Virus record (IMG/VR): IMGVR_UViG_3300010157_000317
Location: 1-20,394 of that record
Length of the DNA: 20,394 nt
DNA from: a virus
Strand: one strand, 5' to 3'
Shown here: positions 4,204-20,394 of the stretch, piece by piece
How the letters are laid out: each line of letters starts with the position of its first letter
Position numbering within the stretch: the first letter of the stretch is position 1
Position numbers and translations under genes: made by a program
Notes under the pieces: generated by a model
Databases searched by the model: none
What the model saw: the letters and a program-made list of their open reading frames with translations, nothing else
What the model was told of the DNA's origin: nothing

Positions 4204-4291
4204 AGTAATTGGCGTTGCGTTTGGGGTGGTGTTGCTGGTAGCCGCCATTGTTATGTGGCTTTCTTTTACGAAATTTTGGGGTAATAAATGA
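4190..4291 (+). CDS. Very small single-pass membrane protein (33 aa)
   Basis: ATG at 4190 lies inside the polymerase's last codons, after a GGAAAG stretch (4180-4185). The frame encodes 33 residues: a short N-terminus (MEIAK), an unbroken hydrophobic segment of about 20 residues (VIGVAFGVVLLVAAIVMWLS), and a basic, aromatic tail (FTKFWGNK). This is a good transmembrane helix with a positive C-terminal end. The stop overlaps the next gene's ATG as ATGA, so the gene bridges two coupled neighbours; without it there would be an 84-base gap in an otherwise gapless operon. The role is unknown: membrane anchoring of replication, or a small holin- or toxin-like peptide, are possible. It is too short for most gene finders. 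Confidence 0.75.
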   Translation: MEIAKVIGVAFGVVLLVAAIVMWLSFTKFWGNK

Positions 4292-4950
4292 GTATCGTAT
4301 GGTCGTTCAGTAGCTTAAAAACATTTCAGCAATGCCCAAAGAAGTACTATCACACCAAGATAGCCAAGGACGTTGTTGAGTCTGACACAACGGCAACGCT
4401 GTACGGCAAGACTGCTCATACCGTAGCAGAGGAATACATTCGGGACGGCAAACCTATCCCGCCAGCCTTTGAGTACATGAAGGACACGCTGGATGCCCTT
4501 AAAAATTTAGAGGGGGAGAAGCTGTGCGAAGTGAAGTTAGGCTTGACCAAAGACTTAGAGGCTTGTGAGTTCCATGCCCCGAATGTATGGTGGCACGGCA
4601 TTGCCGACTTGGTTGTATTGAACGAAGAAAAGGGTTTGGCGCATTCCGCCGACTACAAAACCAGCAAGAGTGCACGGTACGCGGACACCAAACAACTCGA
4701 CCTTGTGGCGGCGGGTATCTTTGCCAAGTTCCCCAAAATCAACCGAGTGAAGTCAGCCTTGATCTTTACGGTAAGTAAGGAGTTTGTGAAGGCCGAGCAC
4801 CACAGAGAAATGATGCAAAAGTACCTAGAAAAGCCAGCAATGAGTGTTGCGCGGATTGAGGCGGCGTTGGAAAATGGGGTGTGGAACCCTACCAGTGGGC
4901 CGCTATGCAAGTTCTGCGCGGTCAAACAATGTGAATACAACAGGAGTTAA
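4288..4950 (+). CDS. Cas4/RecB-like PD-(D/E)XK nuclease with likely iron-sulphur cluster (220 aa)
   Basis: The N-terminal signature WSFSSLKTFQQCPKKYY is typical of RecB/Cas4-type nucleases. Active-site candidates are H44 (YGKTAHTVAEEY), D107 (HGIADLVVL) and D122-Y-K124 (SADYKTSK), followed by Q136. Four cysteines fit a 4Fe-4S cluster of the AddB/Cas4 kind: C16 near the N-terminus and C207-X2-C210-X4-C215 at the C-terminus. Family members are DNA exonucleases acting in end processing and recombination. In phages they are often found beside helicases, and here an HNH nuclease and a SNF2 helicase follow. A GGGG stretch (4278-4281) can act as its ribosome-binding site, and its ATG overlaps the membrane peptide stop. 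No cas1 or cas2 is visible, so I do not suggest CRISPR adaptation. Confidence 0.93.
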   Translation: MSIVWSFSSLKTFQQCPKKYYHTKIAKDVVESDTTATLYGKTAHTVAEEYIRDGKPIPPAFEYMKDTLDALKNLEGEKLCEVKLGLTKDLEACEFHAPNVWWHGIADLVVLNEEKGLAHSADYKTSKSARYADTKQLDLVAAGIFAKFPKINRVKSALIFTVSKEFVKAEHHREMMQKYLEKPAMSVARIEAALENGVWNPTSGPLCKFCAVKQCEYNRS

Positions 4951-4952
4951 TC

Positions 4953-5231
4953 ATGCCATACGTAAACAAACCTAGACCATACAAAAAAGAATATGAACAG
5001 CAAAAAGCAAGAGGCGAATCTGATTCTCGCCTTGAACGTCAACGAGCAAGAAGCGAGATGGACAAGAAGGGCATTGACCGTACTGGAAAAGACATCGACC
5101 ATGTGGTTCCCTTGTCCAAAGGGGGGAGCAATGCTTCGGGAAATCTTAAGCTCAAAGCCCCAAGCGCCAACCGTTCGTTCACTCGTAATTCAGACCATAC
5201 CGTCAAAATTAACAAGCCAAAGAAAAAATGA
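4953..5231 (+). CDS. HNH endonuclease (92 aa)
   Basis: A small HNH nuclease: D49-H50-V-V-P-L, the K-G-G-S-N turn, N64-L after a short spacer, and A-N73-R-S-F complete the beta-beta-alpha metal fold (H50, N64 and N73 as the three positions). There is no CxxC zinc pair, as in many short phage HNH proteins. The N-terminal 45 residues are highly charged and basic and probably contact DNA. The ATG has AGGAG upstream and lies two bases after the preceding stop. Its stop overlaps the helicase ATG. It could be a replication/packaging nuclease or a homing-type remnant; its tight overlap with neighbours on both sides argues that it is a fixed operon member. Confidence 0.92.
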   Translation: MPYVNKPRPYKKEYEQQKARGESDSRLERQRARSEMDKKGIDRTGKDIDHVVPLSKGGSNASGNLKLKAPSANRSFTRNSDHTVKINKPKKK

Positions 5232-6616
5232 ATCTATCAGAGTATGAGTGGCCTCGTCCCCACGGGTTCACACCGTTCGAGCATCAGAAGATTACAGCCG
5301 ACTTTTTAACGACCAATAACAAGGCGTTTTGCTTTAACGAGCAAGGTACAGGCAAGACAGCATCAGTGATTTGGGCAGTTGATTATTTGATGCAACGAGG
5401 GTTAGTCAAGCGTGTGTTAGTGATTTGTCCGTTGTCAATCATGAAGTCAGCATGGCAACAAGACCTGTTTAAGTTTGCAATCCATCGCACGGTATCCGTT
5501 GCACATGGGGCAGCTAAAAAGCGCAAAGAGATCATCAATGCAGGGTCAGAGTTTGTCATCATTAATTTTGATGGGGTTGGAATTGTTAAGAGTGAACTGC
5601 TCAAAGGCGGGTTTGATTTGATTGTGGTAGATGAAGCGTCAGCGTATAAGAATGCTCAGACCGAGCGGTGGAAAGACCTGCGTGACCTAACAAAAGTTAT
5701 ACGTGGGCTGTGGATGTTGACTGGAACACCTGCCGCGCAATCACCTGTGGATGCTTACGGATTGGCAAAGCTGGTGAACCCCAACGGCATACCTATGTTC
5801 TTTGGGCAGTTCAAGGACAACGTAATGTTGAAGGTTGGGCAGTACCGCTGGATACCCCGCCCCGAGTCCAAGCACATTGTCCATAAAGCACTCCAGCCAG
5901 CCATCCGGTTTGAAAAGAAGCAATGCCTTGACCTGCCCCCTGTGACTTTTGTTGACCGTGATGCCCCGATGTCACCTCAACAGATCAAGTACTACAACGT
6001 ACTCAAGAAGCAGATGTTGATTGAGGCCGATGGGGAAGAAATCTCTGCGGTAAACGCCGCTGTAAAGATCAATAAGCTACTTCAAATATCCGGGGGCGCT
6101 GTGTATACGGATACTGGGGAAGTCCTAGAGTTTGATGTATCTGGCAGATTAAACGCAGTGCAAGAAGTCATTGACGAATCAAGTCAAAAAGTTTTGGTGT
6201 TTGTGCCCTTTACCCACACCATCGAACTCTTAGAAAAGCACCTGAGCAAGCACGGCATAAGCTGTGAAGTCATCAACGGTGATGTGAGCGTTAACAAACG
6301 CTCGGTTTTGGTTCAGCAGTTTCAAGACCATACCCACCCCAAGGTGCTCATCATTCAGCCACAAGCAGCATCTCACGGGCTTACCCTAACTGCTGCCGAC
6401 ACAATTATTTGGTACGCTCCCTGCTCCAGCGTAGAGACATACTTACAAGCCAATGCTCGAATTGACCGACCCGGTCAGGTCAACCCAATGACCATCGTGC
6501 ATATAACGGGCAGTCCAATAGAGACAAAGATGTACAGCCTCTTGCGGGGCAACGTGAGTAATCACACAAAAATAATTGATTTGTACAGGCAAGAAATTAT
6601 TTCTGAAAGCACTTGA
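5228..6616 (+). CDS. SNF2-type superfamily 2 helicase/translocase (462 aa)
   Basis: Compact two-lobe SF2 motor. Motif I is G40-T-G-K43-T (Walker A), motif Ia VLVICPLS, motif II D135-E-A-S138, motif III T165-G-T-P168. The C-terminal lobe has VLVFVPFTHT, a LIIQPQAASHGLTLT segment and motif VI N409-A-R-I-D-R414-P-G-Q. This SNF2 layout is common in phages, usually without extra domains, and drives ATP-dependent movement on double-stranded DNA. It may remodel forks or recombination intermediates together with the adjacent Cas4-like and HNH nucleases (inference). The start is coupled (ATGA) to the HNH gene. The stop codon lies within the -35 box of the next promoter. Confidence 0.96.
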   Translation: MNLSEYEWPRPHGFTPFEHQKITADFLTTNNKAFCFNEQGTGKTASVIWAVDYLMQRGLVKRVLVICPLSIMKSAWQQDLFKFAIHRTVSVAHGAAKKRKEIINAGSEFVIINFDGVGIVKSELLKGGFDLIVVDEASAYKNAQTERWKDLRDLTKVIRGLWMLTGTPAAQSPVDAYGLAKLVNPNGIPMFFGQFKDNVMLKVGQYRWIPRPESKHIVHKALQPAIRFEKKQCLDLPPVTFVDRDAPMSPQQIKYYNVLKKQMLIEADGEEISAVNAAVKINKLLQISGGAVYTDTGEVLEFDVSGRLNAVQEVIDESSQKVLVFVPFTHTIELLEKHLSKHGISCEVINGDVSVNKRSVLVQQFQDHTHPKVLIIQPQAASHGLTLTAADTIIWYAPCSSVETYLQANARIDRPGQVNPMTIVHITGSPIETKMYSLLRGNVSNHTKIIDLYRQEIISEST

Positions 6617-6627
6617 CAATGTCAAGT
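6611..6627. promoter_or_regulatory. Perfect 8+1+8 palindrome over the -35 box (candidate operator, copy 2)
   Basis: ACTTGACA, one central A, TGTCAAGT: an exact inverted repeat that includes the whole -35 box and the helicase stop. A dimeric repressor or activator bound here would block or recruit polymerase. A near copy of its core sits at 1204-1218. Nearby candidate binders are the two ribbon-helix-helix-like proteins and the helix-turn-helix protein at 8030. Confidence 0.6.
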
Positions 6628-6640
6628 TTTGTGCTAAACT
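6613..6640 (+). promoter_or_regulatory. Extended -10 sigma70 promoter for the SSB-like/primase block
   Basis: TTGACA (6613-6618), 16-base spacer, TAAACT (6635-6640), with TG at 6632-6633 giving the extended form TGCTAAACT. The gene start is 28 bases downstream of the -10 box. It is one of the few intergenic stretches in the left arm. Confidence 0.78.
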
Positions 6641-6657
6641 AAAACCTCAAAACAACT

Positions 6658-6666
6658 GGAGCTAAC
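6658..6666 (+). promoter_or_regulatory. Ribosome-binding cassette GGAGCTAAC for the coiled-coil protein gene
   Basis: Third plus-strand copy of the 9-mer, ending one base before the ATG at 6668; only the base between differs (T instead of A). Confidence 0.75.
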
Positions 6667-6667
6667 T

Positions 6668-7102
6668 ATGGACGCATTAGAAGGTCAGGACGAAGTCACC
6701 ACTTCTTCCATCCCACTCGACAAACTTGCCGCTATCTATATCAGGATACGCGATGCCAAGGACGACCTCACAGAAACCTACAAAACAAAAGTCGCTGATC
6801 TTGATGAGCAGATGGGCGTACTTGAAACACAGATGCTGAATACTTGTAAAGAGCAAGGTATTGACAGCATCCGCACAAAACACGGCACGATCATTCGTTC
6901 AGTTAAATCACGGTACTGGACAAATGATTGGGATTCGATGTACGACTTCATTGAGGAGACCGGTGCATTTGGCCTGTTGGAGAAACGACTTCATCAAACA
7001 CACATGAAAGACTTTCTTCTTGAGAATCCTGACCTTCTACCGAGAGGTTTGAATGTCGAAAATCAATACACCGTGGTAGTTAGACGTTCTAAGGAAAACT
7101 GA
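6668..7102 (+). CDS. Conserved-type phage protein with N-terminal coiled coil (144 aa)
   Basis: Residues about 17-60 form a predicted helical coiled coil (LDKLAAIYIRIRDAKDDL...DLDEQMGVLETQML). A C-terminal globular part has GIDSIRTKHGTIIRS, WTNDWDSMYDFIEETGAFGLLEKRLHQ, and ends with LPRGLNVENQYTVVVRR. Proteins with this arrangement (helical hairpin, a 'GT-based' beta turn, then 'F-LL-RR' and 'PPGV.....V.VRR') are frequent in phage replication regions, usually next to a single-strand DNA-binding protein, and are loosely similar to the phage Gp157 group; I cannot confirm the family. It is the first gene behind the 6613 promoter and lies three bases before the next gene. Confidence 0.88.
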   Translation: MDALEGQDEVTTSSIPLDKLAAIYIRIRDAKDDLTETYKTKVADLDEQMGVLETQMLNTCKEQGIDSIRTKHGTIIRSVKSRYWTNDWDSMYDFIEETGAFGLLEKRLHQTHMKDFLLENPDLLPRGLNVENQYTVVVRRSKEN

Positions 7103-7105
7103 AAA

Positions 7106-8026
7106 ATGAGCAGCATTACACTTTTTAACCAAGACCTCCCCGACTTTCTGCAAACCGCTGGAGTCAGTGAGCTTACAAAACAACTTGCTGGTAACAGCGG
7201 GATTAAACGAGTCGTCCCTAAAAACGGAATCTTCCGCAAAATTGTGGGTGGCGAAGAAATGGGCAAGGTTAAAGGCGACTTAGAAGTTGTCGTTATCAAT
7301 GCTTCTCCTAAAGTTGGTCGCATCTTTTACGTCAATCAGTGGACTCCCGAAGCCGCGCCAACCGCGCCTGATTGTTTTTCCAATGATGGCAGTACGCCTG
7401 ATGCTGGTTCGGCTAACAAACAGTATGACCGTTGCGATTCATGCGAGCAAAACATCAAAGGCTCAGGTCAAGGTAACTCTAAGGCTTGCCGCTACACACG
7501 CCGCATTGCTGTGAATTTAGTAGAGGACTTTGGCACTTCACTTGAAGGTTCTGTATACCAAATGAACTTGGCCTCCAAGTCTTTATTTGGCGAGAGCGTT
7601 GGCGACAACACTCATCCGTTTGAGACTTACACCAAGTACTTGTCCAACAACGGCAAAAGCTTGGACTACGTTGTTACACAGGTGAGCTTCAACGAAGATA
7701 ACGACAACCAATCTGTTTTGTTTACCCCATTGCGCCATATCAACAAGGAGCAATACGCAGTGACCAGCAAGGCCGCTGTTCTGCCTGAGACACAGAAGAT
7801 GGTCACCATGACCCCATATCAAGCCGATATGTCAGGCCGTGCGCCAAAGCTGGAAGCGCCCAAAGCCGAGGCCCCAAAAGCCAAAGTTAAAGTGGAAGCC
7901 GAAGCTGAGGATGATGACGGAGTTGAAGCACCTAAGAAGCGTGAATCCAAGAAAGCTGTTGAAACCGCACCCACACCCAAGAAAAGTTTGGACTCAGTGG
8001 TAGCGGCTTGGGCAGACGAGGAGTAA
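7106..8026 (+). CDS. Candidate single-strand DNA-binding protein with Cys cluster and acidic tail (306 aa)
   Basis: The protein has three parts. Residues about 1-80 are beta-rich and basic (KRVVPKNGIFRKIVGG, GDLEVVVINASPKVGRIFYV). Residues 90-128 carry four cysteines, C90, C110-X2-C113 and C128, with KGSGQG between, consistent with a structural zinc site. Residues about 245-306 are Ala/Lys/Glu/Pro-rich and end in W-A-D-E-E, an acidic aromatic tip like those of SSB proteins. Position between a phage accessory protein and the primase fits an SSB role, as does the acidic tip, but the fold is not proved by sequence. The low-complexity linker (EAPKAEAPKAKVKVEAEAEDDD) is typical of flexible SSB tails. 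Confidence 0.87.
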   Translation: MSSITLFNQDLPDFLQTAGVSELTKQLAGNSGIKRVVPKNGIFRKIVGGEEMGKVKGDLEVVVINASPKVGRIFYVNQWTPEAAPTAPDCFSNDGSTPDAGSANKQYDRCDSCEQNIKGSGQGNSKACRYTRRIAVNLVEDFGTSLEGSVYQMNLASKSLFGESVGDNTHPFETYTKYLSNNGKSLDYVVTQVSFNEDNDNQSVLFTPLRHINKEQYAVTSKAAVLPETQKMVTMTPYQADMSGRAPKLEAPKAEAPKAKVKVEAEAEDDDGVEAPKKRESKKAVETAPTPKKSLDSVVAAWADEE

Positions 8027-8029
8027 CGC

Positions 8030-8269
8030 ATGACCTATGGTTACAGCCAAAAATTAGTTGATGCTAACAAAAAAGCCGATGCTGATTCTTTAGGCGTAGC
8101 CTTGGGTCGCTTCTGTATCGAGCGGGAGATTACTGCTACGCGAGTGGCATTAGAACTAGGCGTTAGCCGCATGACGGTCTACAACTGGTTTTGGGGTGAG
8201 TTCACCCCGTCTCCAACTTACGCTGAGCAGATAGAGCGTTTCATGGCACGGCATAAAAAGCGCAAATAA
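8030..8269 (+). CDS. Small helix-turn-helix DNA-binding protein (79 aa)
   Basis: Residues about 35-56 form a classic helix-turn-helix (ATRVALELGVSRMTVYNWFWG), with V-S-x-M-T-V-Y-N-W in the recognition helix as in Cro/CI-like and transposase-type HTH domains. The C-terminus is basic (MARHKKRK). The ATG has AGGAG upstream, three bases after the preceding stop. It is a candidate for the regulator that binds the palindrome at 6611, controlling its own operon, or for a replication-origin binder acting with the primase encoded just after it. Neither is shown directly. Confidence 0.9.
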   Translation: MTYGYSQKLVDANKKADADSLGVALGRFCIEREITATRVALELGVSRMTVYNWFWGEFTPSPTYAEQIERFMARHKKRK

Positions 8270-8272
8270 ACA

Positions 8273-11128
8273 ATGTCTACATTTGATTTGCTTGATACCG
8301 TATTACCTACGGAGGGGCGGTACTGCATAGTTGGCATAGGTAAATATGTTGACCAGCGTTTTGCAAACACAAGGGAAGAAACCGAGACACTCATCCAAGA
8401 GTTCAACACCAAGCAAGTCAACGTGTATTTTGGTTGTGCCAAGTTTGGTACGGCAGATGACAGGACGCACGAGAACGTAGCCTTTGTTCAAGCCTTATGG
8501 CTAGATATTGATTGCGGCCCGACCAAGGGTGTACCGAACTCCAAAGGGAAGATTGAAGGCTATCTCGACCAGCAAACAGGGCTGGAAGAGCTTAAGAAGT
8601 TTTGCAAGACTGTCGGCTTACCTAGACCAATTTTGGTGAACTCCGGCAACGGTGTTCATGCCTACTGGTTGCTTGAAAAGATGTTATCCCGCAAAGAGTG
8701 GGAGCCATTGGCCAAGCGACTAAAACAACTGTGCAAAGAACATGACTTGATCGTTGACGACAAGGTGTTTGAAGCATCGCGGGTTCTTCGTGTACCCGAA
8801 TCAATGAACGTGAAGAAAGGTTTAGAGCCTAAGCCAGTCAGTGTGTGGAACGAGGTTTCGCCGAGGCTGTCTATTGAGAAACTGCGTGAGTTGCTGGGCG
8901 CACCTGAACCCAAACAAGAAGAGGAAGTGCCTGACTTCGTACCTTCTTCGATGAGTCCGATGATGCAAGCATTGATGGGTAACAAGGTCAAACGGTTCAA
9001 GACCATCATGCTCAAGGCCGAGAACGGCTGTGCGCAACTGAATTACGTATTTCAAAACCAAGCTGAGATTGACGAGCCACTGTGGATGTCGGCGTTATCT
9101 ATTTCTGCTTTCTGTGTAGATGGGGACAAAGCGGCGCACAAGATGTCTAGCGGTCACCCCGAGTACGACCCCGCCGAGGTAGAGAACAAGCTCAGGAACA
9201 TACGTAAACGCGGTGGCCCACATCACTGCACAACATTTGAAGAGCGCAACCCCGGTGGCTGTGATGACTGTGTACACAAAGGCGAGATTACTTCACCTAT
9301 TGTGTTAGGCATAGAGGTAGCAGAAGCTACTGAAGCCGACAACGAAGTAGAGGTGGAAACCGAAGAGGGTGTTGAAACGCATCAAATACCTGAGTATCCG
9401 TTCCCATTCTTCAGGGGTAAAAAGGGTGGCGTATATGTTCGTCCCCCCAAAGATTCCGAAGAAGCACCCGCAATGGTGTACGAGCATGACTTGTATGTAG
9501 TCAAGCGTATGAGGGACAAAGAGTTGGGTGAAATGGCGTTGTTCAGACTTCACTTACCACATGACGGGGTGAAGGAGTTTGCGATAACCACTGCATCCAT
9601 TTCATCAAAGGACGAGCTACGCAAACAGCTTGCCCAGCAGGGCGTAATGGCGCACCACAAGCAATATGAAAATCTTGCAACGTACGTTATTACAGCAGTA
9701 AAGAATTTGCAATTTACAAAGAAAGCAGAGCTTATGAGAACACAATTTGGATGGGTTGACGGAGACAGTAAATTTATTATGGGCAACAAAGAGATCACCA
9801 AAGACGGTACGTTCTATAGCCCATCATCGACAACAACAGAATTTTTTGCCGAGAAGATTCATGAAAAAGGCGACATGGATAAGTGGAAAGAAGTCTTCAA
9901 CCTGTATGCAATAAAGGGTATGGAAGCCCATGCTTTTGGAGCCTTAACCGCGTTTGGCGCTCCACTAATGAAGTTCACTGGATTGAAAGGCGCGATCATT
10001 AACGTGATCTACCAATATGCTGGATCAGGAAAATCAACCATTCTGCGCATGTGCAACAGCGTATACGGTATGCCCTACGAGCTTATGTCAATCCAAAAAG
10101 ACACGCTCAATGCAAAGATGCAGCAGCTTGGGGTAATGAACAACATCGCCAATACGATTGACGAAATCACCAACATGACCCCTCAAGAGTTTTCTGACTT
10201 GTCATACGGCATCAGTCAGGGCCGAGGCAAACATCGCGTCAAAGGTTCTGAGAACGCACTACGCATCAACAACACCTCATGGCAAAACATGACTTTATGC
10301 TCATCGAACGCCAGCTTTTATGAGAAGTTGACCGCGTTGAAGAACAGCCCAGATGGTGAATCCGTACGGTTACTTGAGTACAAGATAGAACCTAACGACT
10401 TGATTGGCGTGGCTAGGGGCAAGGAAATGTTTGACCACCAACTCAATGAGAATTATGGTCATGCGGGTGAGATATACCTTGCATGGTTGGTAAACAACCT
10501 AGAGTACGCCAAGGACTTGGTAAAGAAAGTGCAAGCCCGACTGGACAAAGAAGTTCAGTTCACCGCAAGGGAGCGCTTTTGGTCGGCCACTGCCGCTTGT
10601 AATATTGCTGGTGGTTTGATTGCCCGCCACCTTGGTTTGCACGACTATGATATGACCGCTGTGTATGAGTGGCTAAAAGATATGTTGAGCGAAATGCGTC
10701 TCGATGTGAAGCCCCCGCAGTCAACCCCCGTTGCTACCCTTGGTGAATTTCTTGATAGCCATCACGCCAATGCTTTGGTGGTCAACGGTCAAGTAGATGC
10801 CCGAAGTAATATGTCGGCGCTACCTTTGCAAGAACCCCGTCAAGAATTGCTGGTACGTTACGAGCCGGATACCAAACACATCTATGTAGCAGCCAAGCAG
10901 TTCAAAGAGTTTTGTATCGAGCAGCAGGTCAATTACAAAAGTTTGCTCAAAGAGTTAACCGACTTGCAAATATTTGTTGAGGCAACCAACAAGCGTATGT
11001 CCAAAGGTATGAAGGTTGCGTCTCCTGCTGTACGCACGTTGAAATTTGACGCATCGCATTCCGAGTTCCTGCGCATGGACGATATGTTGGGCCTAAATGA
11101 AAATCGAGACAGTGTCGTATCAGCTTGA
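8273..11128 (+). CDS. Primase-polymerase fused to a DUF927-type helicase (951 aa)
   Basis: Replicative primase-helicase. The N-terminal 200 residues look like an archaeo-eukaryotic-type primase: D78-I-D80 (WLDIDCG), S124-G-N-G-V-H129-A-Y-W, and the basic R170-V-L-R-V-P motif ending in N179. A Cys/His cluster follows (H317-H-C319-X10-C330-X2-C333-V-H335), then IVLG. After an acidic linker, residues about 373-840 resemble DUF927, a P-loop NTPase domain: Walker A A583-G-S-G-K587-S-T and Walker B I-D630-E631. It would prime synthesis and unwind the fork for the PolA encoded upstream. The start is three bases after the HTH stop and has a weak ribosome-binding site, so coupling is likely. The end overlaps the next gene by 32 bases. 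Confidence 0.93.
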   Translation: MSTFDLLDTVLPTEGRYCIVGIGKYVDQRFANTREETETLIQEFNTKQVNVYFGCAKFGTADDRTHENVAFVQALWLDIDCGPTKGVPNSKGKIEGYLDQQTGLEELKKFCKTVGLPRPILVNSGNGVHAYWLLEKMLSRKEWEPLAKRLKQLCKEHDLIVDDKVFEASRVLRVPESMNVKKGLEPKPVSVWNEVSPRLSIEKLRELLGAPEPKQEEEVPDFVPSSMSPMMQALMGNKVKRFKTIMLKAENGCAQLNYVFQNQAEIDEPLWMSALSISAFCVDGDKAAHKMSSGHPEYDPAEVENKLRNIRKRGGPHHCTTFEERNPGGCDDCVHKGEITSPIVLGIEVAEATEADNEVEVETEEGVETHQIPEYPFPFFRGKKGGVYVRPPKDSEEAPAMVYEHDLYVVKRMRDKELGEMALFRLHLPHDGVKEFAITTASISSKDELRKQLAQQGVMAHHKQYENLATYVITAVKNLQFTKKAELMRTQFGWVDGDSKFIMGNKEITKDGTFYSPSSTTTEFFAEKIHEKGDMDKWKEVFNLYAIKGMEAHAFGALTAFGAPLMKFTGLKGAIINVIYQYAGSGKSTILRMCNSVYGMPYELMSIQKDTLNAKMQQLGVMNNIANTIDEITNMTPQEFSDLSYGISQGRGKHRVKGSENALRINNTSWQNMTLCSSNASFYEKLTALKNSPDGESVRLLEYKIEPNDLIGVARGKEMFDHQLNENYGHAGEIYLAWLVNNLEYAKDLVKKVQARLDKEVQFTARERFWSATAACNIAGGLIARHLGLHDYDMTAVYEWLKDMLSEMRLDVKPPQSTPVATLGEFLDSHHANALVVNGQVDARSNMSALPLQEPRQELLVRYEPDTKHIYVAAKQFKEFCIEQQVNYKSLLKELTDLQIFVEATNKRMSKGMKVASPAVRTLKFDASHSEFLRMDDMLGLNENRDSVVSA

Positions 11129-11358: not shown

Positions 11359-11384
11359 CCCCCGCCTATGTGCGGGGGTTTTTT
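11359..11384 (+). terminator. Rho-independent terminator of the left arm
   Basis: CCCCCGC (11359-11365) pairs with GCGGGGG (11372-11378) around the loop CTATGT, followed by six T (11379-11384). The T-run lies on the plus strand only and overlaps the stop codon of the minus-strand 2147-residue gene. On the minus strand the same hairpin is followed by AAAGGG, so it does not look like an efficient terminator for the right arm. Confidence 0.93.
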
Positions 11385-14300
11385 ATGGCTTGTTGTATAC
11401 CGACAAAGCCTTTTCAGCTTCATTGGATACAGGGCCAAGGAGTGCAGCATTTTTCTCATTGATGTCGATACCGCCAAAGATTCCTTTGCGTAATACCTTG
11501 TTGATATTTTCAGCATTGGCATTCTCAAGCTCATCCATATCAATCTGCTTGGTTGGATTACGCAAGTTGAAATCAATGATCTTGTCAAAGGTATCTACCC
11601 ACTTATTCCCAAATCGTTCTTGCGCAGACAAAGGTATGGTTGGGTCGATTGACTTACGGAAGTTATCTTTGTACTGCTGTTCTAAGTTTTGCTTTTCCAT
11701 AGCAATTTGTTTTTCAACAACTGCACCACGGTTGGCTAAATCTTGCGCAGTAGATAGAGCCGCAGGACGGTATCCAATAGCTTGGCCGACAATCTCACTT
11801 GTTGGTACTTTGCCGGGTTCAGCAAGCTGTACGCCTTGAGGTGTTTGAATACCTTGAGTAGCGTAGCGATAAGCAATCATGTAGTTGCTGATGGAGCCGG
11901 GTGTTAACTTCTCCATACCACGCTGGTATTCACCGTTGGCTAAATCTTGCAACCCATTCATGGTGTTTATTGCCAAGTTCGGCACAGGGCCACCAAGCGC
12001 CAAAGCCCAATTCAAGAACGTGTCTTTATTGGTTTTGCCGGGGGAGTTTGGTTCACGGAACCACATGTTATCAAGTGAAACACGGCTGGATAAATCTATT
12101 CCAGCAAACTTATTTGCCACACCCTTTTTAAGAGTCTCAGACCATTCGTCTCCAAACTGCTGCGGCATAAACTCAGTTTTCCACCATGTCAGGTAGTCCA
12201 AGTTTTTCATTTCATCAGGCGCATCTGGGTCACGTCCCCATTTGTTCCATGCTGCACCAATGATGGCCATGATTGTTGTAAACAATGGCAATGCTTCCAA
12301 ACCACCAAGCAACAAGTGTGTGCCCAAAATTCCGAAGAATTTAGTAGCTGCTTTAGCTTTGTCTTCTTTGTTGAAGCCGGGGAGCATCTTAAAGAAATTG
12401 CTGGCCAAGTTCTTGTATGTCACCAAGGGGAAGAACTTATACATGGTCAACACCTTGCCGCCAGCACCTTGCATCAGCAATGGGCGGTTATCTGGGGAGT
12501 AATTACCAAAGGCTTCATAAGTCTCATCAACTGCGGCTCTGATTGCTTTATCGTAATCCCCCCCAAATTTTTCCATGTTGGCACGGAAAGAAGCCAGCCC
12601 CAAGAACTCACGAGACAAACGCTCGCCGTGGTGCATCAAACCACCAAAAATTAAATTGCTGGTTACGTCTTTAGCCATTCGCACGCCGGTGCTTGTAACA
12701 GGTTTCTTGGCTTGACTAAATACTGTACTGGCCAAAGTATCCTTAAACACTCCATACGAACCTATATCCCGAATGGCTCGGCGTTCTGTTGGTGTGAGTC
12801 CTGTAGCGTGCTCAATGCTTGGCATACGCCAGCGGGTAGTTCCATCTGCTTGGTGCTCAATAACGCCGTACTGATTCCAGAACTTGAGCATCTTTGACAT
12901 TTCAGCAAGCCCTCTAGGGCCATGATTGGCGAGCATCATGGGGACACCTTTGAGGAAAATATCCATAGGCTGCATGATTGCCGACGACCAACTTGTCATG
13001 TAGCGTAGATATGCGGCCTTGGTTACAAGTCCTGCTGCGGAATCATAAAACTTAGCAAGCGTTGTTTTTTCTGGCGGGCTCAAAGAGTTTGCAGCTAACT
13101 CAGCAGCACGTTGAACAAACGCTTTGTATGTGGGGTCATCGGCAATTGCTTTATACGCACCATCAACTGCACTGCGGATACTTGGGCCATAACGTAAATT
13201 AGGGAACTGCCGAGACATTTTTATTCCCACTGCGTTTACGTTCCTAAGCACATCACTGCTGTAGCCGGGTGTACCTTTGCGGTGCATAAACATTTTGCGC
13301 ACACTGGCTTCAGGCATAGCCGCTAAATACGCTTGGTAGATGTTGTCCTTGATAGCTTCTTTTGCACCGGGCTCAGTTATGTTGGCGGTATCAACGGCTT
13401 CATACGCGGCTTTGAGCAACTTACTTGTGCTTTCAATAGTACTGCGCATTCTAGACCCGCCAATATCATCGCTGATCTTGACATACCCATTGTCACGCAA
13501 ATACTTTAAAGATATATCCTTGCTCTTAGCGTACTCAAGTGCGGCTCGGTCACGTTCAATTTTTGTCTCAAAACGAACTGAGGTGCGCTTGTCGCCTTTG
13601 CCAAACTCCAAAACATAGTCGCCGTAGCGCATCAATGGGAAGTATGGGTCAATGGTTTTATCGCCCTCAAAGATTTCTCGTATACCCGCCATGACTTTGT
13701 CACGCTCACCTGCGGGCAAATCCAACTTATCAATCTGGTCAGAAATGATTTGCCGTTGGAAATCCTTCATGTCCGTGTAGTAGTCACGCAAGTTTTTGTA
13801 CAACTCTTTACCCCGCTCGGGCAGTGCGTTGTACATGGCATCTAAAGTTTTGTCGCGGTGCGTGTTGTTTGGTTTTGATGGGTCGTACTCGGCGTTTGTT
13901 GAGGCGTGTACCAAGTCGTTAAACACATCTTTAAATTTTGGATGTGCGTTGTAGAACCGAACAATTTGCTCTGACTGGTTAGCCACACTACGAAGAATAG
14001 ACTCGGTCATGCCATTCTTTTTCTGAATAGCCTCATACAAATCTTGTAAAGATTGAATGCGCTCACCGGGGCCTTTGGCTATGGCTTCCAAGTCATAAGC
14101 ATGAGAGAACACAGTACGAGCCGAATCGCTCAGGCTATCCCAAACCAGCTTTGTTTCTCTCCAAAGTATCCGAGGGTCACGCAAAGCCGCAGCTATGGAT
14201 ACCGACTTACCCAATTCATTACCCGCTCTGGAGAGAGCAACGCCACGCAAAGCCCTACTTGTTGCTTGCTGTAGCTGATGAGCAGTACGCTCTAACGGTT

Positions 14301-17300
14301 CTTTGGGCTCTTCGCTTGCAAAAGTTCTGGCAGCTAACTCTCCAGCAGGAGCTTTCTCATCAAGAATCTTATCGGTGATATTGATAAGGTCAGACATGGC
14401 AGAGAACTCATCTTTGCCTTTACCAAATGCCTTTGCCCACTCGTTGTACAGCGTGCGCACAAAAGAAGAGAACCCATTCTCATTCTGTGTACCTTTGACT
14501 CGACCCAAAAATTCTTGGAATACTTCATCAGACATACCGTAAGCCAAGAACTCTTGTGGTGTCTTGAATATGTCGTAGTGAACAGTGCCGTCGGCGTCTG
14601 TGACAATCGTAGCTTCGATGCGCTTCTTTAACTCATCGGGTACCAAATTCATTCTGTCCATCAACTCGTATTGACGTTTGACCCGGTCGGCTAAGTCTGT
14701 GAGTTCTTTGACAAGCGCAGAAGATTTACCAAATTTGGCAAGCGCAATTCTTCTATCAGTAGCGGCGTGCAGTAATTCATGGAGCACGGTAATGTTGTTT
14801 ATACCGTGACCACTACCCCAGCTTTCACCCCTGACGTAAACAGTTTTTGTGCCTCGGCTATACAAGCCGTTCGCAGACCGCATAGCTTCACGCAAGGCTG
14901 GGGGCATTGGGTCATCTTTTTCCAACACCACAAACGTGACACCATTGGTAAACGCACGCAGTCGGTTAGCCAAAGACTTTTGAAAAGCATTACCAGTCTT
15001 AGCAACAATGGTCAGTGCTTGAGATGCGTTGGTAGCTCTGTTGAACGCGGTGTTGGGTTTGCCCTTAACTGGGATTCTGCTTGCAAGCGGGCTCTTACCT
15101 TGGAATGACTCACCAATCTCTCCGCGCAAATCTGTCTTTGCACGAATCTCCATACCCCGTTTAGCCGCATCAATGTCGGCTTGGGATAATTTGCTGCGGT
15201 CATTCAGTAATGCTTTGACACGATTACCAACGGCTGTGCCCCGCAAGTTGGGGTTTAGGTTCAACTCCAACAATTGTGTTGCTACATACTTTTTGGCTTT
15301 CTCTTTATCTTCTTCAGCTTGGTCTACTTTATCGGCCTCAAGTTCTTCATCGACAGGCTTAAGCGCCTCGTCGAGCATCTTGTTCAACTTTTTAAGTTGA
15401 TAGTCGGCATTGTCAGTATCTTTCTTGCGCTGTTTTTTATCCCCTTCAAGTTTTTGTTTTTGTTCTTCTGTGCGCTCAAGGGGTGGCCGACCACGTCGTT
15501 TTGTTTCGGCTGGTGTTTCTGCGGCAGGTGCAGGCTGTTTTTGCTTTGCTTTGTTTATTTCATCATCGTATGTAGCAATTGCTTTATCAATCGTAGGCTG
15601 GTCGTCTATACCTTGCTCACGTAAAGTGTCCGCAATGTTGTCTCTATGTGCGCCAATTGATTCTTCTAAAGACTCAAAGTCGCCTTGCCCAGCTATTGCA
15701 CTATCTGCGGAGCGTTGAGCAAACGCAATTGGGTCTACTTTGGCTTCTTCAACAGGTGCGGGCTCTTCTGCTTTAGCTTCTTCAACAGGCGCAGCTTCTT
15801 CTGCTGTTGGGCGGCGCTCAATCTCATTGATTAAGCCAAACAATTTTTTGCCAAAGTCTATAGCCGAATCTTCGGCCTTCATCCAATTCCGTACTTTTTC
15901 TATATCTTCAGGTGTGACTTTGCCTTGAGTATGTAAGTCTTGGAGTTCCTCAATAAGTGTTTTGCCTATTGGAGCGGGTTGCGCTGGCGCTCGTTCATTA
16001 ACTCTTGCAACATCTTGTCCAGCAGAAACCACTCCACCTCGCTCAGTGACTCCAGCCCTTCCGGGGGGTAACTCTGTACTGGGCTGTTCAACCACTGGAA
16101 TGCTTGCTCCACTTGGCTTGGTAATAGTCTGTCCAACATTTGGTTCTCCTTGAGTTTCTGCTTGTGCAGGCGCATTGGTTCCTTCTTCGGCAGCTAAGCG
16201 TTCTTCAGCAATACGAGTTGCATTTTCAATTGGTATGTTTGTGCGTTTTTGGATTTCTTCCGCAAGCTGAGCAACTCGTTCATCTTTTGGTACAACTGGA
16301 GCTTGAGGAGGGGTAAGGTCTTCGCCCGGCCTAGCTTCGCCGACTGCACCTAAATCTGTAGCAGGGGCTGGAGGAGCTTTTTGTTCTTGGCGTTGTTGCT
16401 GCTCGGGGGTTAAGAACCCTTTGGATTTGGCAATGAGTTCAGCCAAGCCTTCATAGCTTGAGTCCTTCATGTAAGGTACACGCTCATCCGCTACTTGTTT
16501 GCCTTGAGTATGTTCAATACCTTTATGAGCACCGCGTAATACCGCAAACGCCAAAGCATTTTCAACCATGCTTTGTGGGTCAACTACCGGTGAGTCAGTA
16601 TTGCGGCCATTTACAACATCAATACCCTTATGAGTAGCGCTATCGGCAGCATTAAACAAAGCACCTTCGGCAGCAGCACTTGTCAGTTGGGGTAACAATT
16701 TATCAGATGCCTGTAACGCCTCCGGCAATACTTTGCCGCCAGTGGCAATTAACCGACCACCGTACATCATCATTCCCGCCGAGGCCAATGCGTGTTCAAC
16801 TGCAACTGATTGAGGAGCGCCTGCCTTAAGTTGTTCTTTATATGTGTCTCTAAACCCGGGCAACGCAAACAAAACACCGGTAGATAGCAAAGGGATTAAA
16901 CTCGCGCCCCCTGTATATGGAGCAGCCATTGTTTCAACTAACGCAGGGGTTAGGCCACCAACCATACTAGATACTCGGCCAAGAGTAGTGTCCCCACCAT
17001 ATTTGGATTGGAATTCTTTAACCGATTTACGTGTTGCATCCAGTTGGTCGGCAGTATCGGACGCACGTACATAGTCGGATAAAGCAGCCGTGGCACCTAA
17101 TATCGCATCAGCAAATCCACCGGCAAAGTTTGCACCAATGGTCTCGCCATAAGTTGGGGGTTTAACTCCTTGTTGCTTTGCTATGTATTCTTCGGGAGCT
17201 TCTTTTAACTGTGCGGGATTTGCAAACAACTGCCCACTTGCTGCTTGCGCACGAGCAAGACTTTCTGGGTCATATCTATTGTCTTCTGCAAACCGTTCAG

Positions 17301-17826
17301 TCTGTGCTTCAAGGCGTGGGTCAAACTTTCTTGTGGTTGGAGTTTGATTTTGATCTTCGGCGGCATACCGACCAGCAATAGCACGAGCGGCTCGGCCATA
17401 TACATCAGGGCGTTGCGCCATCTTATCCAACGCAGCTTGCCTTTGTTCGGCTGGCATTGCGTCTAGCTGGGCTTTAACTGCGGCTGTAAACTGAGGGTTT
17501 ACAACTGCTTGGTCTTCGGTTGGAAGTGGGGGAACTTTTACCCCTTCCATTACGCTTTCGCGTTTAGGTTGTGCCACATCCATGATGGCTGAGCCAAGGT
17601 CATCTCCCATAACCCCAGTGGTATTTTCAACAGGGGCGGCTTGCTTTTTAGGGTACGTCTTACCTTGAACTGTACGGGCCGGGCCTTGGGATTGCCTTGG
17701 TACGTAGTTGCGCATTCCCTCTTCAGATGAACTTGCACCAGCTTTGGTATTTAATAAATCTGAAAGACCAAACTCTTCTTGAGGCGCGGGGGTCAACGCC
17801 TCTTCCAACGAAAAATCTTTAGACAT
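11383..17826 (-). CDS. Giant virion-type protein with zincin (HELLH) motif, polyvalent-protein-like (2147 aa)
   Basis: A multi-domain protein. Residues about 225-375 contain Gly/Ala-rich hydrophobic segments (ANFAGGFADAILGATAAL, LIPLLSTGVLFALPGF, ALASAGMMMYGG) that could insert in a membrane. Residues about 480-775 are Pro/Glu/Ala-rich linker with a short tandem repeat. R777-R-G-R-P-P782 resembles an AT hook and leads into a Lys/Glu coiled coil (783-855). H1016-E-L-L-H1020 in TVLHELLHAATD is a zinc metallopeptidase motif. The C-terminal half is helical, with a hydrophobic stretch at about 1824-1863 (GILGTHLLLGGLEALPLF). This layout resembles phage polyvalent proteins, whose C-terminal part here recalls the LPD38 type (tentative), or internal virion proteins injected with DNA. 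AAGGGG precedes the ATG. The gene follows the next one by nine bases. Confidence 0.9.
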   Translation of the reverse strand: MSKDFSLEEALTPAPQEEFGLSDLLNTKAGASSSEEGMRNYVPRQSQGPARTVQGKTYPKKQAAPVENTTGVMGDDLGSAIMDVAQPKRESVMEGVKVPPLPTEDQAVVNPQFTAAVKAQLDAMPAEQRQAALDKMAQRPDVYGRAARAIAGRYAAEDQNQTPTTRKFDPRLEAQTERFAEDNRYDPESLARAQAASGQLFANPAQLKEAPEEYIAKQQGVKPPTYGETIGANFAGGFADAILGATAALSDYVRASDTADQLDATRKSVKEFQSKYGGDTTLGRVSSMVGGLTPALVETMAAPYTGGASLIPLLSTGVLFALPGFRDTYKEQLKAGAPQSVAVEHALASAGMMMYGGRLIATGGKVLPEALQASDKLLPQLTSAAAEGALFNAADSATHKGIDVVNGRNTDSPVVDPQSMVENALAFAVLRGAHKGIEHTQGKQVADERVPYMKDSSYEGLAELIAKSKGFLTPEQQQRQEQKAPPAPATDLGAVGEARPGEDLTPPQAPVVPKDERVAQLAEEIQKRTNIPIENATRIAEERLAAEEGTNAPAQAETQGEPNVGQTITKPSGASIPVVEQPSTELPPGRAGVTERGGVVSAGQDVARVNERAPAQPAPIGKTLIEELQDLHTQGKVTPEDIEKVRNWMKAEDSAIDFGKKLFGLINEIERRPTAEEAAPVEEAKAEEPAPVEEAKVDPIAFAQRSADSAIAGQGDFESLEESIGAHRDNIADTLREQGIDDQPTIDKAIATYDDEINKAKQKQPAPAAETPAETKRRGRPPLERTEEQKQKLEGDKKQRKKDTDNADYQLKKLNKMLDEALKPVDEELEADKVDQAEEDKEKAKKYVATQLLELNLNPNLRGTAVGNRVKALLNDRSKLSQADIDAAKRGMEIRAKTDLRGEIGESFQGKSPLASRIPVKGKPNTAFNRATNASQALTIVAKTGNAFQKSLANRLRAFTNGVTFVVLEKDDPMPPALREAMRSANGLYSRGTKTVYVRGESWGSGHGINNITVLHELLHAATDRRIALAKFGKSSALVKELTDLADRVKRQYELMDRMNLVPDELKKRIEATIVTDADGTVHYDIFKTPQEFLAYGMSDEVFQEFLGRVKGTQNENGFSSFVRTLYNEWAKAFGKGKDEFSAMSDLINITDKILDEKAPAGELAARTFASEEPKEPLERTAHQLQQATSRALRGVALSRAGNELGKSVSIAAALRDPRILWRETKLVWDSLSDSARTVFSHAYDLEAIAKGPGERIQSLQDLYEAIQKKNGMTESILRSVANQSEQIVRFYNAHPKFKDVFNDLVHASTNAEYDPSKPNNTHRDKTLDAMYNALPERGKELYKNLRDYYTDMKDFQRQIISDQIDKLDLPAGERDKVMAGIREIFEGDKTIDPYFPLMRYGDYVLEFGKGDKRTSVRFETKIERDRAALEYAKSKDISLKYLRDNGYVKISDDIGGSRMRSTIESTSKLLKAAYEAVDTANITEPGAKEAIKDNIYQAYLAAMPEASVRKMFMHRKGTPGYSSDVLRNVNAVGIKMSRQFPNLRYGPSIRSAVDGAYKAIADDPTYKAFVQRAAELAANSLSPPEKTTLAKFYDSAAGLVTKAAYLRYMTSWSSAIMQPMDIFLKGVPMMLANHGPRGLAEMSKMLKFWNQYGVIEHQADGTTRWRMPSIEHATGLTPTERRAIRDIGSYGVFKDTLASTVFSQAKKPVTSTGVRMAKDVTSNLIFGGLMHHGERLSREFLGLASFRANMEKFGGDYDKAIRAAVDETYEAFGNYSPDNRPLLMQGAGGKVLTMYKFFPLVTYKNLASNFFKMLPGFNKEDKAKAATKFFGILGTHLLLGGLEALPLFTTIMAIIGAAWNKWGRDPDAPDEMKNLDYLTWWKTEFMPQQFGDEWSETLKKGVANKFAGIDLSSRVSLDNMWFREPNSPGKTNKDTFLNWALALGGPVPNLAINTMNGLQDLANGEYQRGMEKLTPGSISNYMIAYRYATQGIQTPQGVQLAEPGKVPTSEIVGQAIGYRPAALSTAQDLANRGAVVEKQIAMEKQNLEQQYKDNFRKSIDPTIPLSAQERFGNKWVDTFDKIIDFNLRNPTKQIDMDELENANAENINKVLRKGIFGGIDINEKNAALLGPVSNEAEKALSVYNKP
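15743..15808 (-). repeat. 33-base tandem duplication in the Pro/Glu linker (2 copies)
   Basis: Two adjacent 33-base units (15743-15775 and 15776-15808) agree at 27 of 33 positions and encode the repeated PVEEAK motif of the giant protein's linker. The unit is a multiple of three, so the frame is kept. It looks like local slippage in low-complexity sequence. Confidence 0.7.
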
Positions 17827-17835
17827 AACGACCCC

Positions 17836-20394
17836 TTACGGTACAGGCGTGAATTTTTGCGTTGTTGCATTCCATTTAGCATTACCCCTTGACGTACTAT
17901 ATACAACTCCGTCTTTTAAAACAGCGGCTGTAGGGTTAGCGGGCAATGGTTGTGCAACTGGGGCTGCGGGGTTTGCACCGGGAGCACCAACAGCTGAACG
18001 TGCTTTTTGGAAATTGGTAAGTGCTCTTTGTGCGGCATCCTGTTCCATTTTTTGCATAGCACCAGCGTCTTTTTGTTGCATAGCTTTTAAATATGGAGCG
18101 GATTTCTTCACTGCGGCCACTTCTTTTTCTTGTTGCGCAGCTAAATCTTTTGCTAATACATCGGCTTTACCCGCAGCTTCAGCACCGCCGGGAGCAATGT
18201 CGTGTGTTTGAGCGCTTGTGACGGTTGATGTACCTTTGGTGGTGATGTCTTTTGTACCCTTCATTTCAAGAACTTGTCTATAGGCTGCGGCGTTTATACG
18301 TGCCTCGTATTGCTCTGGCGTTTCACCTGTTCTTATTGGCGTTGTAGATTTTAAATCCGCTGCAATTGATGCTTGCGCATTAATATCAAAGTTAGGTGTT
18401 GCCGCTTTGACGGGTCTGTTAAGCATAGCGCCTTTACCCAGCAACCTTGATTGTGCGTTAACTTTATCCACAGCAAACTTCTTGGCATCCATTTCGGATT
18501 TGCGTGCATTTTCCATAAGAGCCACGGCGTCTTTGGTGAGACCAAGGTTTTCTTTGCGTTTGGCATCAGCCAAGCTGTATTGCATTTGCGCCAAAGAAAG
18601 CTTTTCTTTGTTAGCGGCATTAACATATTGTCCATAAACACCAGCAAACGCACCGCCAGCAGCGCCTAACCCACGAAGGGCATTACCACCTTGGAGCATA
18701 GCGGGGATTGCTTGAAGCGCGGCTAAGCCTTTACCTTCATTAAGTCTATCTTGACTCGATGATTCTATGTCTGCAAGTTTTTTAGAAAAATCGTTGTAAC
18801 CAGTATCTGTACCAGCTTGATCGCGCAAAGCTTTGTTATAAATCCCAAGTTGAGCTATACGTTCTGCCGCAGTCATAGGCTTATCGTTAGCGCCTAAATT
18901 ATTTAATGCTTTTGATTGGTTTAATATTTCTTGGCTAAATTGATTAGCATAATTACCGCCTGCACCATCGGTGTCAGTGTCATTATCATCTTCGTTATCT
19001 TCTTTATTTTGATCTAGGATTTTTTGTAAATCTACATCGCTATCATCATTACCGGCAAACGCAACAATCCCACCACCAGCCATCATTTGTTCTTGCTGTT
19101 CTTGAGGGATTTGATTAAACGCATTACCAAGACCACCACGTACTGAAGCACGCTCAGCCATTTCTGCGTCAATCATTTGAGCTTGTTCTGCATCCCGCCG
19201 ACTCAGTGCTACTTCTTTGGCTTTTTGTAGTTGTTGGTCACTTAACTTACTGAGAATACTTTCTACATTTTGTGGGCTTGTTACTCCACCACCAGCGTAC
19301 GACTTCATCAAGCCGCCTTCTTTACCAAACAATTTAGATGCACCATACGCACCCAGCCCCAACGCACCAAGCGACTGTATTCCAGAAGGTGCTGGTTGGT
19401 ATATAGCCGATGTTGACTGTTGACCCAATGGCAAACCACGAATCATGTCAGACATGAAGCCCAACTGTTTATACGGGTAATTCTGTTGATTCAAGAAATC
19501 TTGATAAGCCTGATCCAGAGGACGCTGAGCTTGTTGTTGCATCTGACCGCCATATGTGCTTTGCAACTTATTGATGTCCATTCCCTGCTGGAACTGCTGA
19601 CCACCTAACTGACCAAGTTGACCCGCTGCTTGCAAGCCAGTCTGCAAACCCTGCATACCCAAACCAGCACCATACTGGCGGGACTGTTCACCTAATTGGT
19701 TTGCAGCTTGTCCATATTGAGCACCGAGACCAGCAGCTTGCAAACCTTGACCAGCGCCGTACTGCCGAGATTGTTCCGCAGCATTCTGCGCTTGCTGAAA
19801 TGCTTGTTGGTTTGCCAACTGAGATTGCAAGTTTTGACCCGCGCCAAGCTGCTGTACGCCAAGTAGCGCATTGAGGTTTTGACCGCCGACGTTAATACCA
19901 GCTTGCTGATTTGCCATCTGCGCTTGCAAACGTGCTTGTTGCTCGGTGTTAAATTGTTGCTGTGCATTTTGAAACGCAGCTTGTTGCCCCGTGGCTTGAA
20001 TATCACCTTTTTGCGTAGCTAAATTACGCGCAGCTTCCGCATCCATAATTGCTTGTCGAGAGCCGCCAAACGCACCAGCGCCCACAGCTTGCGCATTGCG
20101 TCCTGTACCGGCAATATCTGCTTGGCGCTGAGCCTCGCGCTGTTGAATATCCACCACATTTTGCATGTAGGGGGACATGTATTGTTGCGCAGAATATGGG
20201 TTTGCAAAGCTTTGTGTGCGGACTCTTTCCGCTGGATTCATTTGATAATTTTGCAAGTCAGGAGCTCGCGCTTGCATCATAGAAAACTGACCGGGCTGAT
20301 ACTGACCGGGCGCTTGAAATTGATTATCAAACTGACCTGATTGATATTGCGTATTAAGTGCGCCAAGACCTGCGGCTGTGGCTAAATCTGTACC
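17836..20394 (-). CDS. Gln/Ala/Gly-rich virion-type protein, 5' end outside the window (at least 852 aa)
   Basis: The frame is open without a stop to the right edge; the ATG at 20280 is only an internal Met, because 38 further in-frame codons (ending PGQYQPGQFS before it) have the same composition. The visible part begins Gln/Ala-rich, with a 29-residue repeat carrying EQSRQYGAG twice. It continues with Gly-rich segments (SYAGGGV, MMAGGGIVAFAG), an acidic Asp/Asn/Glu linker (about 18960-19040), Lys/Ala helices and a C-terminus ending GNAKWNATTQKFTPVP. No enzyme motif is visible. Such sequences are typical of phage internal virion or tape-measure-like proteins of podoviruses, an inference from composition and from the giant neighbour. 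AAGGGG near the stop serves the next gene. Confidence 0.88.
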   Translation of the reverse strand, partial: GTDLATAAGLGALNTQYQSGQFDNQFQAPGQYQPGQFSMMQARAPDLQNYQMNPAERVRTQSFANPYSAQQYMSPYMQNVVDIQQREAQRQADIAGTGRNAQAVGAGAFGGSRQAIMDAEAARNLATQKGDIQATGQQAAFQNAQQQFNTEQQARLQAQMANQQAGINVGGQNLNALLGVQQLGAGQNLQSQLANQQAFQQAQNAAEQSRQYGAGQGLQAAGLGAQYGQAANQLGEQSRQYGAGLGMQGLQTGLQAAGQLGQLGGQQFQQGMDINKLQSTYGGQMQQQAQRPLDQAYQDFLNQQNYPYKQLGFMSDMIRGLPLGQQSTSAIYQPAPSGIQSLGALGLGAYGASKLFGKEGGLMKSYAGGGVTSPQNVESILSKLSDQQLQKAKEVALSRRDAEQAQMIDAEMAERASVRGGLGNAFNQIPQEQQEQMMAGGGIVAFAGNDDSDVDLQKILDQNKEDNEDDNDTDTDGAGGNYANQFSQEILNQSKALNNLGANDKPMTAAERIAQLGIYNKALRDQAGTDTGYNDFSKKLADIESSSQDRLNEGKGLAALQAIPAMLQGGNALRGLGAAGGAFAGVYGQYVNAANKEKLSLAQMQYSLADAKRKENLGLTKDAVALMENARKSEMDAKKFAVDKVNAQSRLLGKGAMLNRPVKAATPNFDINAQASIAADLKSTTPIRTGETPEQYEARINAAAYRQVLEMKGTKDITTKGTSTVTSAQTHDIAPGGAEAAGKADVLAKDLAAQQEKEVAAVKKSAPYLKAMQQKDAGAMQKMEQDAAQRALTNFQKARSAVGAPGANPAAPVAQPLPANPTAAVLKDGVVYSTSRGNAKWNATTQKFTPVP
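19663..19776 (-). repeat. Degenerate 87-base (29-residue) repeat encoding EQSRQYGAG twice
   Basis: The 27-base cores at 19663-19689 and 19750-19776 encode identical nonapeptides. They differ at five bases, all at third codon positions, so the duplicated peptide has been kept while the DNA diverged. The intervening residues are also Gly/Ala/Leu/Gln-rich. Confidence 0.7.

Follow-up and report, generated by a model that had tools for sequence, protein, structure and literature searches.

What role does a 2147-residue protein play in an uncultured virus when its sequence joins membrane-like segments, an AT-hook-like motif and a zinc protease motif in one chain? This question is raised by the window analysed here, namely the whole 20,394-base record IMGVR_UViG_3300010157_000317, which is probably a fragment of an uncultured virus. 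A reading of the letters without database searches (hereafter, the sequence-only reading) had placed a 2147-residue ORF at 11383-17826. We found this ORF on the minus strand, with all the motifs at the places assigned to them, i.e., RRGRPP at residue 777, TVYVRG at 995, HGINNIT at 1007 and HELLH at 1016-1020.

11383..17826, minus strand: giant ORF of 2147 aa (start 17826, end 11383), a polyvalent/ejection-type protein

An identical second copy of the protein is present in IMGVR_UViG_3300010885_006879, and a partial protein with 84% identity is found in IMGVR_UViG_3300009184_002425 (L003). Comparison of the gene with this partial relative over 1149 codons gave a pN of 0.088 vs. a pS of 0.589, indicating that it is under purifying selection. 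More relatives were collected in two scans, one of which used the HExxH pattern itself, yielding approximately 160 viral-contig loci. Along the polypeptide, uncharged hydrophobic stretches at the N-terminus are followed by an AT-hook-like linker, a zincin domain at residues ~926-1166 and a helical part with LPD39 and the PLxRFG region at residues 1297-2102. Thus, as in other polyvalent proteins, several unrelated domains (zincin, LPD39 and PLxRFG) are found in one large ORF.

The zinc protease motif lies within a zincin-type metallopeptidase domain, which was delimited by hhalign, PDB profile matches, AlphaFold modelling and VIA structural alignment.

14329..15051, minus strand: zincin-type metallopeptidase domain, residues ~926-1166
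14767..14781, minus strand: HELLH, residues 1016-1020, predicted to provide two His ligands and the catalytic Glu; invariant in relatives
14551..14553, minus strand: E1092 in PQEFLAYG, proposed third zinc ligand; invariant, with a Glu aligned in known phage proteins

Based on the composition of the protein, approximately 0.017 occurrences of HExxH would be expected by chance. Residues H1016, E1017, H1020 and E1092 are invariant in the zincins of 91/91 non-redundant relatives. Since one scan had searched with HExxH, the count was redone on the subset for which the C-terminal region had served as the only query, and the same four residues were invariant in 47/47. The absence of HExxH from close homologues, which the sequence-only reading had named as refuting its interpretation, was looked for, and the motif was present in every member of both sets. 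The zincin itself was found in 54 of the 55 complete C-terminal relatives (those whose upstream part is longer than 350 aa), L022:2485-9549 being the sole one without any zincin match. In an alignment with phiKMV gp37, Vibrio phage PG11 vRNAP, Limnohabitans phage YIMV22061 and Xanthomonas phage CP2, the single conserved Glu after the HExxH is E1092, and the zincin profile match to PhiM1 gp48 also aligns a Glu with this position. In the AlphaFold model, HELLH lies in one helix and E1092 in the next conserved helix, the arrangement described for Iyer-type zincins. These results support the zincin reading and, from residue conservation, make E1092 the candidate for the third ligand that could not be placed previously.

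HGINNIT had been called conserved-looking in the same reading. The G-x-N-N-x-T pattern before the HExxH is indeed conserved, but its His (H1007) is replaced by Gln in 63/91 relatives, and H1007 was for this reason rejected as the third zinc ligand. H1007 and D1024 of the window protein also fit the signature of Iyer et al. (a His at the end of strand 2 and an Asp after the HExxH); this signature was set aside because both residues vary in the relatives, the Asp being present in 8/91. Some relatives have further domains: Xanthomonas phage CP2 ORF24 (L006) and the PG11 vRNAP (L007) contain two HExxH motifs per virion-type protein, suggesting tandem zincins, and L027:4412-12790 shows a weak match to a ParB N-terminal domain (E 1e-5) upstream of the zincin.

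The zincin model (pLDDT 89.3, pTM 0.89) consists of the HExxH helix and then the helix bearing E1092. VIA-align placed zinc metallopeptidases at the top, with lethal factor at Z 8.0 (4.3 Å, 152 residues), PPEP-2 at Z 6.8 (3.9 Å, 138 residues) and residues 2124-2348 of the N4 vRNAP (C1 domain) at Z 6.3, Z scores up to 8 being middling by the tool's own calibration. Foldseek yielded no match of the model to the PDB at E <= 0.001. We assign the domain to the zincins because the top VIA rows are zinc metallopeptidases and the sequence evidence agrees. Among predicted viral proteins (BFVD), 30 matches to the zincin were obtained at E <= 0.001, including large polyvalent proteins, internal core proteins, vRNAPs and a crAss-like RNAP-associated zincin protein.

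Profile comparisons related the domain to ejection proteins of known structure. Against solved phage chains, the zincin profile had two matches. One is 9sfn_G (E 1.4e-24), an internal virion protein of the phiKMV type; the other, at E 2.1e-4, is the tetrameric ejection protein of PhiM1 (8vb2_A), which carries LHEAAHA and a downstream Glu. Using hhalign, the zincin matched the phiKMV-like ejection protein with 99.2% probability (E 6e-20) and the N4-like vRNAP with 98% (E 2.8e-13). The zincin piece alone matched the virion RNA polymerase family phrog_2206 in PHROGs (E 1.5e-8). Its matches in phage genomes, at ~25-28% identity, were to N4-like vRNAPs, internal core proteins of the phiKMV type and a protein of a Limnohabitans phage. 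Residues 268-528 of the PhiM1 protein have been described as endolysin/exotransglycosidase-like (PMC11440229); the zincin profile match with HExxH and downstream Glu (8vb2_A residues 380-516, PhiM1 gp48) falls inside this stretch, and PPWS2 ORF51 (L220) was observed as a match of the same kind.

C-terminal to the zincin, four features were localized.

13723..13938, minus strand: LPD39, residues 1297-1368 (Pfam PF18858, 34.3 bits vs. a cut-off of 27)
11521..13647, minus strand: PLxRFG ("tail-700") region, residues 1394-2102 (NCBIfam NF032893, 309.5 bits vs. a cut-off of 100)
13621..13638, minus strand: PLMRYG, residues 1397-1402, a variant of the PLxRFG motif; cultured phages have PLARFG in the aligned place
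12247..12345, minus strand: hydrophobic segment within the PLxRFG region, residues 1828-1860, the strongest Kyte-Doolittle peak of the protein

LPD38 had been named in the sequence-only reading among the profiles to search with; the profile search returned LPD39 and PLxRFG instead, and in Pfam at E up to 1, where the HMMER filters drop weak matches, LPD39 was matched and LPD38 was not. In PHROGs, residues 1382-2100 matched phrog_10089, named "DarB-like antirestriction" (E 1.7e-61). When the PLxRFG region was compared by hhalign with the N4 C2 domain, the phiKMV hub, T7 gp16 and the JC1 C-terminus, no match was significant, the best being N4 C2 with 18% probability; the same method finds no link between the phiKMV and T7 hubs either. 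A long model of moderate quality (pLDDT 69.5, pTM 0.52) gave VIA scores of Z 7.9 with the N4 vRNAP, 6.0 with PhiM1, 5.4 with the E1004 core (model residues 266-763) and 4.8 with T7 gp16 (model residues 295-711), in a list of 50 rows that, like the Foldseek results, are mostly generic helical proteins. The N4 vRNAP score is probably driven by the zincin. The structural link between the modelled C-terminal region and a T7 gp16-type hub is thus suggestive only. Among the relatives, L040:7307-10009, L016, L035 and others of ~2900-3200 aa have ~750-1000 extra residues between the zincin and LPD39, which contain a second, weakly YgjP-like HExxH in addition to a match to an HSP90/histidine-kinase-like ATPase (HATPase_c_3, E 1.1e-5).

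Upstream of the zincin, the protein contains the linker and the hydrophobic N-terminal part.

15481..15498, minus strand: AT-hook-like RRGRPP, residues 777-782; RGRP recurs in relatives
15247..15474, minus strand: charged, probably helical stretch at residues ~785-860, seen in the translation and previously regarded as a putative coiled coil
17077..17139, minus strand: hydrophobic Gly/Ala-rich segment, residues 230-250, a Kyte-Doolittle peak of conserved position
16852..16932, minus strand: hydrophobic uncharged segment, residues 299-325 (Kyte-Doolittle), of conserved position

RGRP occurs at most 500 aa before the HExxH in 38/76 non-redundant relatives, whereas 200 shuffles averaged 0.65 and never exceeded 4; these 38 are not fully independent because some are closely related to each other. 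The motif is mostly located 213-279 residues before the HExxH and is downstream of it in two relatives, and a frequent form is K-R-G-R-P-x-x-L-T-x-E-E. The AT-hook-like motif proposed by the sequence-only reading is thus borne out as a recurring feature. As for the N-terminal hydrophobic segments, their position is conserved, the top peak falling within residues 130-400 in 58/62 sequences as compared with 22.8 in shuffles. Runs of at least 35 uncharged residues are present in 28 of the 62 N-termini (0.55 in shuffles), but the peak hydrophobicity is not above that of shuffled N-termini. The region shows no detectable sequence homology to the N-terminus of the N4 vRNAP, where membrane-spanning helices at residues 224-278 are supported by nanodisc incorporation (PMC12633501).

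The genomic context agrees with a late virion gene. The next gene upstream lies on the same strand as the giant gene.

17836..20394, minus strand: upstream gene of at least 852 aa, running off the window, with a weak match to the DNA-ejection-protein family phrog_4287 (E 3.6e-4)

Of 11 related records, 10 contain a match to this gene and only the 12.8-kb L003 fragment does not; its counterpart in the relative G003 matches a DNA ejection protein family with E 1.1e-6. In G003, terminase, portal and virion structural protein genes are located on the same strand as the giant gene, a late-virion-gene neighbourhood of which the window itself contains the ejection-like neighbour only. The order of structural genes, ejection-like gene and giant gene last is like that of phiKMV (gp35, gp36 and gp37) and of several giants of the PEp14 type considered below. 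The plus strand of the window (2383-11128) carries a replication module with DNA polymerase, exonuclease, helicase and primase/helicase matches, and in G001 and G003 ORFs of similar size and order lie opposite the giant gene's strand.

Based on these data, it is probable that the 2147-aa protein is a packaged and ejected ejectosome-type virion protein of an uncultured tailed phage, whose zincin most likely cleaves the protein itself or a partner. Packaging in the capsid and injection, as already proposed by the sequence-only reading, gain support from the homology to ejectosome proteins and N4-like vRNAPs and from the late-gene context. We infer that this largest internal virion (ejection) protein, of the polyvalent type with zincin, LPD39 and PLxRFG, would be packed with the DNA in the capsid and then ejected into the host via the tail. 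The uncharged N-terminal stretches may touch or enter the membrane, the AT-hook-like linker may hold DNA, and the helical C-terminal half would help to build the delivery machine. After ejection, the zincin, with H1016, H1020 and E1092 as predicted ligands and E1017 as general base, would cut its own polypeptide or a partner ejection protein, self-processing being the most likely form of proteolysis. Iyer et al. predicted that MPTase domains of this kind process polyvalent proteins, with self-processing as their proposal, and reported that the N4 vRNAP is packaged unprocessed (PMC5512222); hence, processing after ejection is the likelier order here. Several observations stand against this interpretation: RGRP is present in only half of the relatives, the N-terminus lacks detectable homology to that of N4, and the C-terminal region has no detectable sequence relation to the helical regions of T7, phiKMV and N4. 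In addition, our literature search yielded no report of protease activity for the solved ejectosome homologues, and the PhiM1 region has been published as endolysin-like.

The sequence-only reading had suggested that the protein could cleave a host target such as a defence protein. An effector protease acting after injection would agree with the full conservation of the metal site, with fold matches that include zinc proteases cleaving host proteins and with the proposal that polyvalent proteins carry such effectors (PMC5512222). Nevertheless, PADLOC gave no defence-related match, none of our results points to a substrate, and ejectosome proteins of many unrelated phages carry the same domain. 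Because of this wide occurrence, a general role in delivery or processing fits better than a single host target, and we consider the effector explanation unlikely. It is likewise improbable that the zincin is not a peptidase and retains its metal site for structural reasons or to carry out some other metal-dependent reaction. The HExxH Glu would be dispensable in a purely structural site and yet is invariant in 91/91 relatives, and the best structural matches by VIA are peptidases. What speaks for such a role is that HExxH is also known in metal enzymes other than peptidases, as noted in the N4 vRNAP paper (PMC12633501), that Foldseek weakly matched the model to an HExxH alpha-ketoglutarate oxygenase domain (E 1.4), and that the solved ejectosome homologues have been described as virion components, with no report of protease activity found in the literature.

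The name of the best PHROGs family would make the protein a DarB-type antirestriction protein. The phrog_10089 match on which this depends is strong, but it is confined to the C-terminal PLxRFG region, and searches of the window protein with Pfam, PHROGs and NCBIfam found neither a DNA methylase nor an SNF2 helicase domain. Antirestriction has been described for proteins of phage P1 but is not known for the PLxRFG region. Antirestriction of the DarB type is therefore a very improbable function for this protein.

The ejectosome-type reading places the protein in a known class whose present lineage is little described. The combination of an ejectosome/vRNAP-type zincin with LPD39-PLxRFG forms a coherent lineage that is widespread in environmental viruses, each part being of an already known kind. 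It joins two sets of giant proteins that are usually treated apart, the PLxRFG/LPD39 "antirestriction" proteins and the ejectosome/virion-polymerase proteins. A zincin-type site is also recognized in solved ejectosome proteins, one of them published as endolysin-like. As a tentative extension, LPD39/PLxRFG could be a divergent T7 gp16-type hub, the podovirus "DarB-like" giants could be ejectosome components with effector cargo, and the zincin could be a common processing part of the ejectosome in several phage groups; we regard this wider scheme as possible rather than likely.

Among known systems, lethal-factor-like and PPEP metallopeptidases share the overall zincin fold and the HExxH with a downstream Glu, at low identity to the window zincin (~14%). 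Their catalytic Tyr lies seven residues before the ligand Glu; at the corresponding position, 1085, our relatives mostly have D, E, G, K or N, and a Tyr is not conserved. The "DarB-like" giants of PEp14, Skulduggery, ZX1 and Atu_ph08 have homologous C-terminal ~800 residues (22-25% identity, E down to 4e-56) and the PLxRFG motif in common with the window protein, and their genes adjoin virion structural genes. They differ in length (3026-4985 aa), the annotations of several name a DNA methylase or an SNF2 helicase, and their HExxH, where present, does not match the window zincin. The virion proteomics of JC1 gp69 (51 peptides, PMC9144972) was rejected as a direct precedent, the C-terminal part of JC1 having no PLxRFG profile match; its support for the present interpretation comes solely by way of the PEp14-type giants, with which JC1 has other parts in common.

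phiKMV gp37 and PhiM1 gp48 (PDB 9sfn and 8vb2), tetrameric ejection proteins that are virion components of the ejectosome (PMC11440229), have the same zincin with HExxH and downstream Glu. They are shorter (1263-1337 aa), with no LPD39/PLxRFG match and no detectable homology past the zincin. The N4-like vRNAPs of the Schitoviridae differ in having an RNA polymerase domain, and their helical region is not detectably homologous. No T7-like RNA polymerase domain was found in the window protein with Pfam, NCBIfam or PHROGs, phrog_2206 matching the zincin part only. In the remaining architecture, the two are probably alike. The vRNAP of N4 is ejected from the virion and contains an HExxH domain (C1) as well as an N-terminus that inserts into the membrane (PMC12633501), and N4-like vRNAPs in general combine an N-terminal membrane-interacting region and ejection with the DNA, both predicted for the window protein too, with the same zincin, followed by a large helical C2 of similar length.
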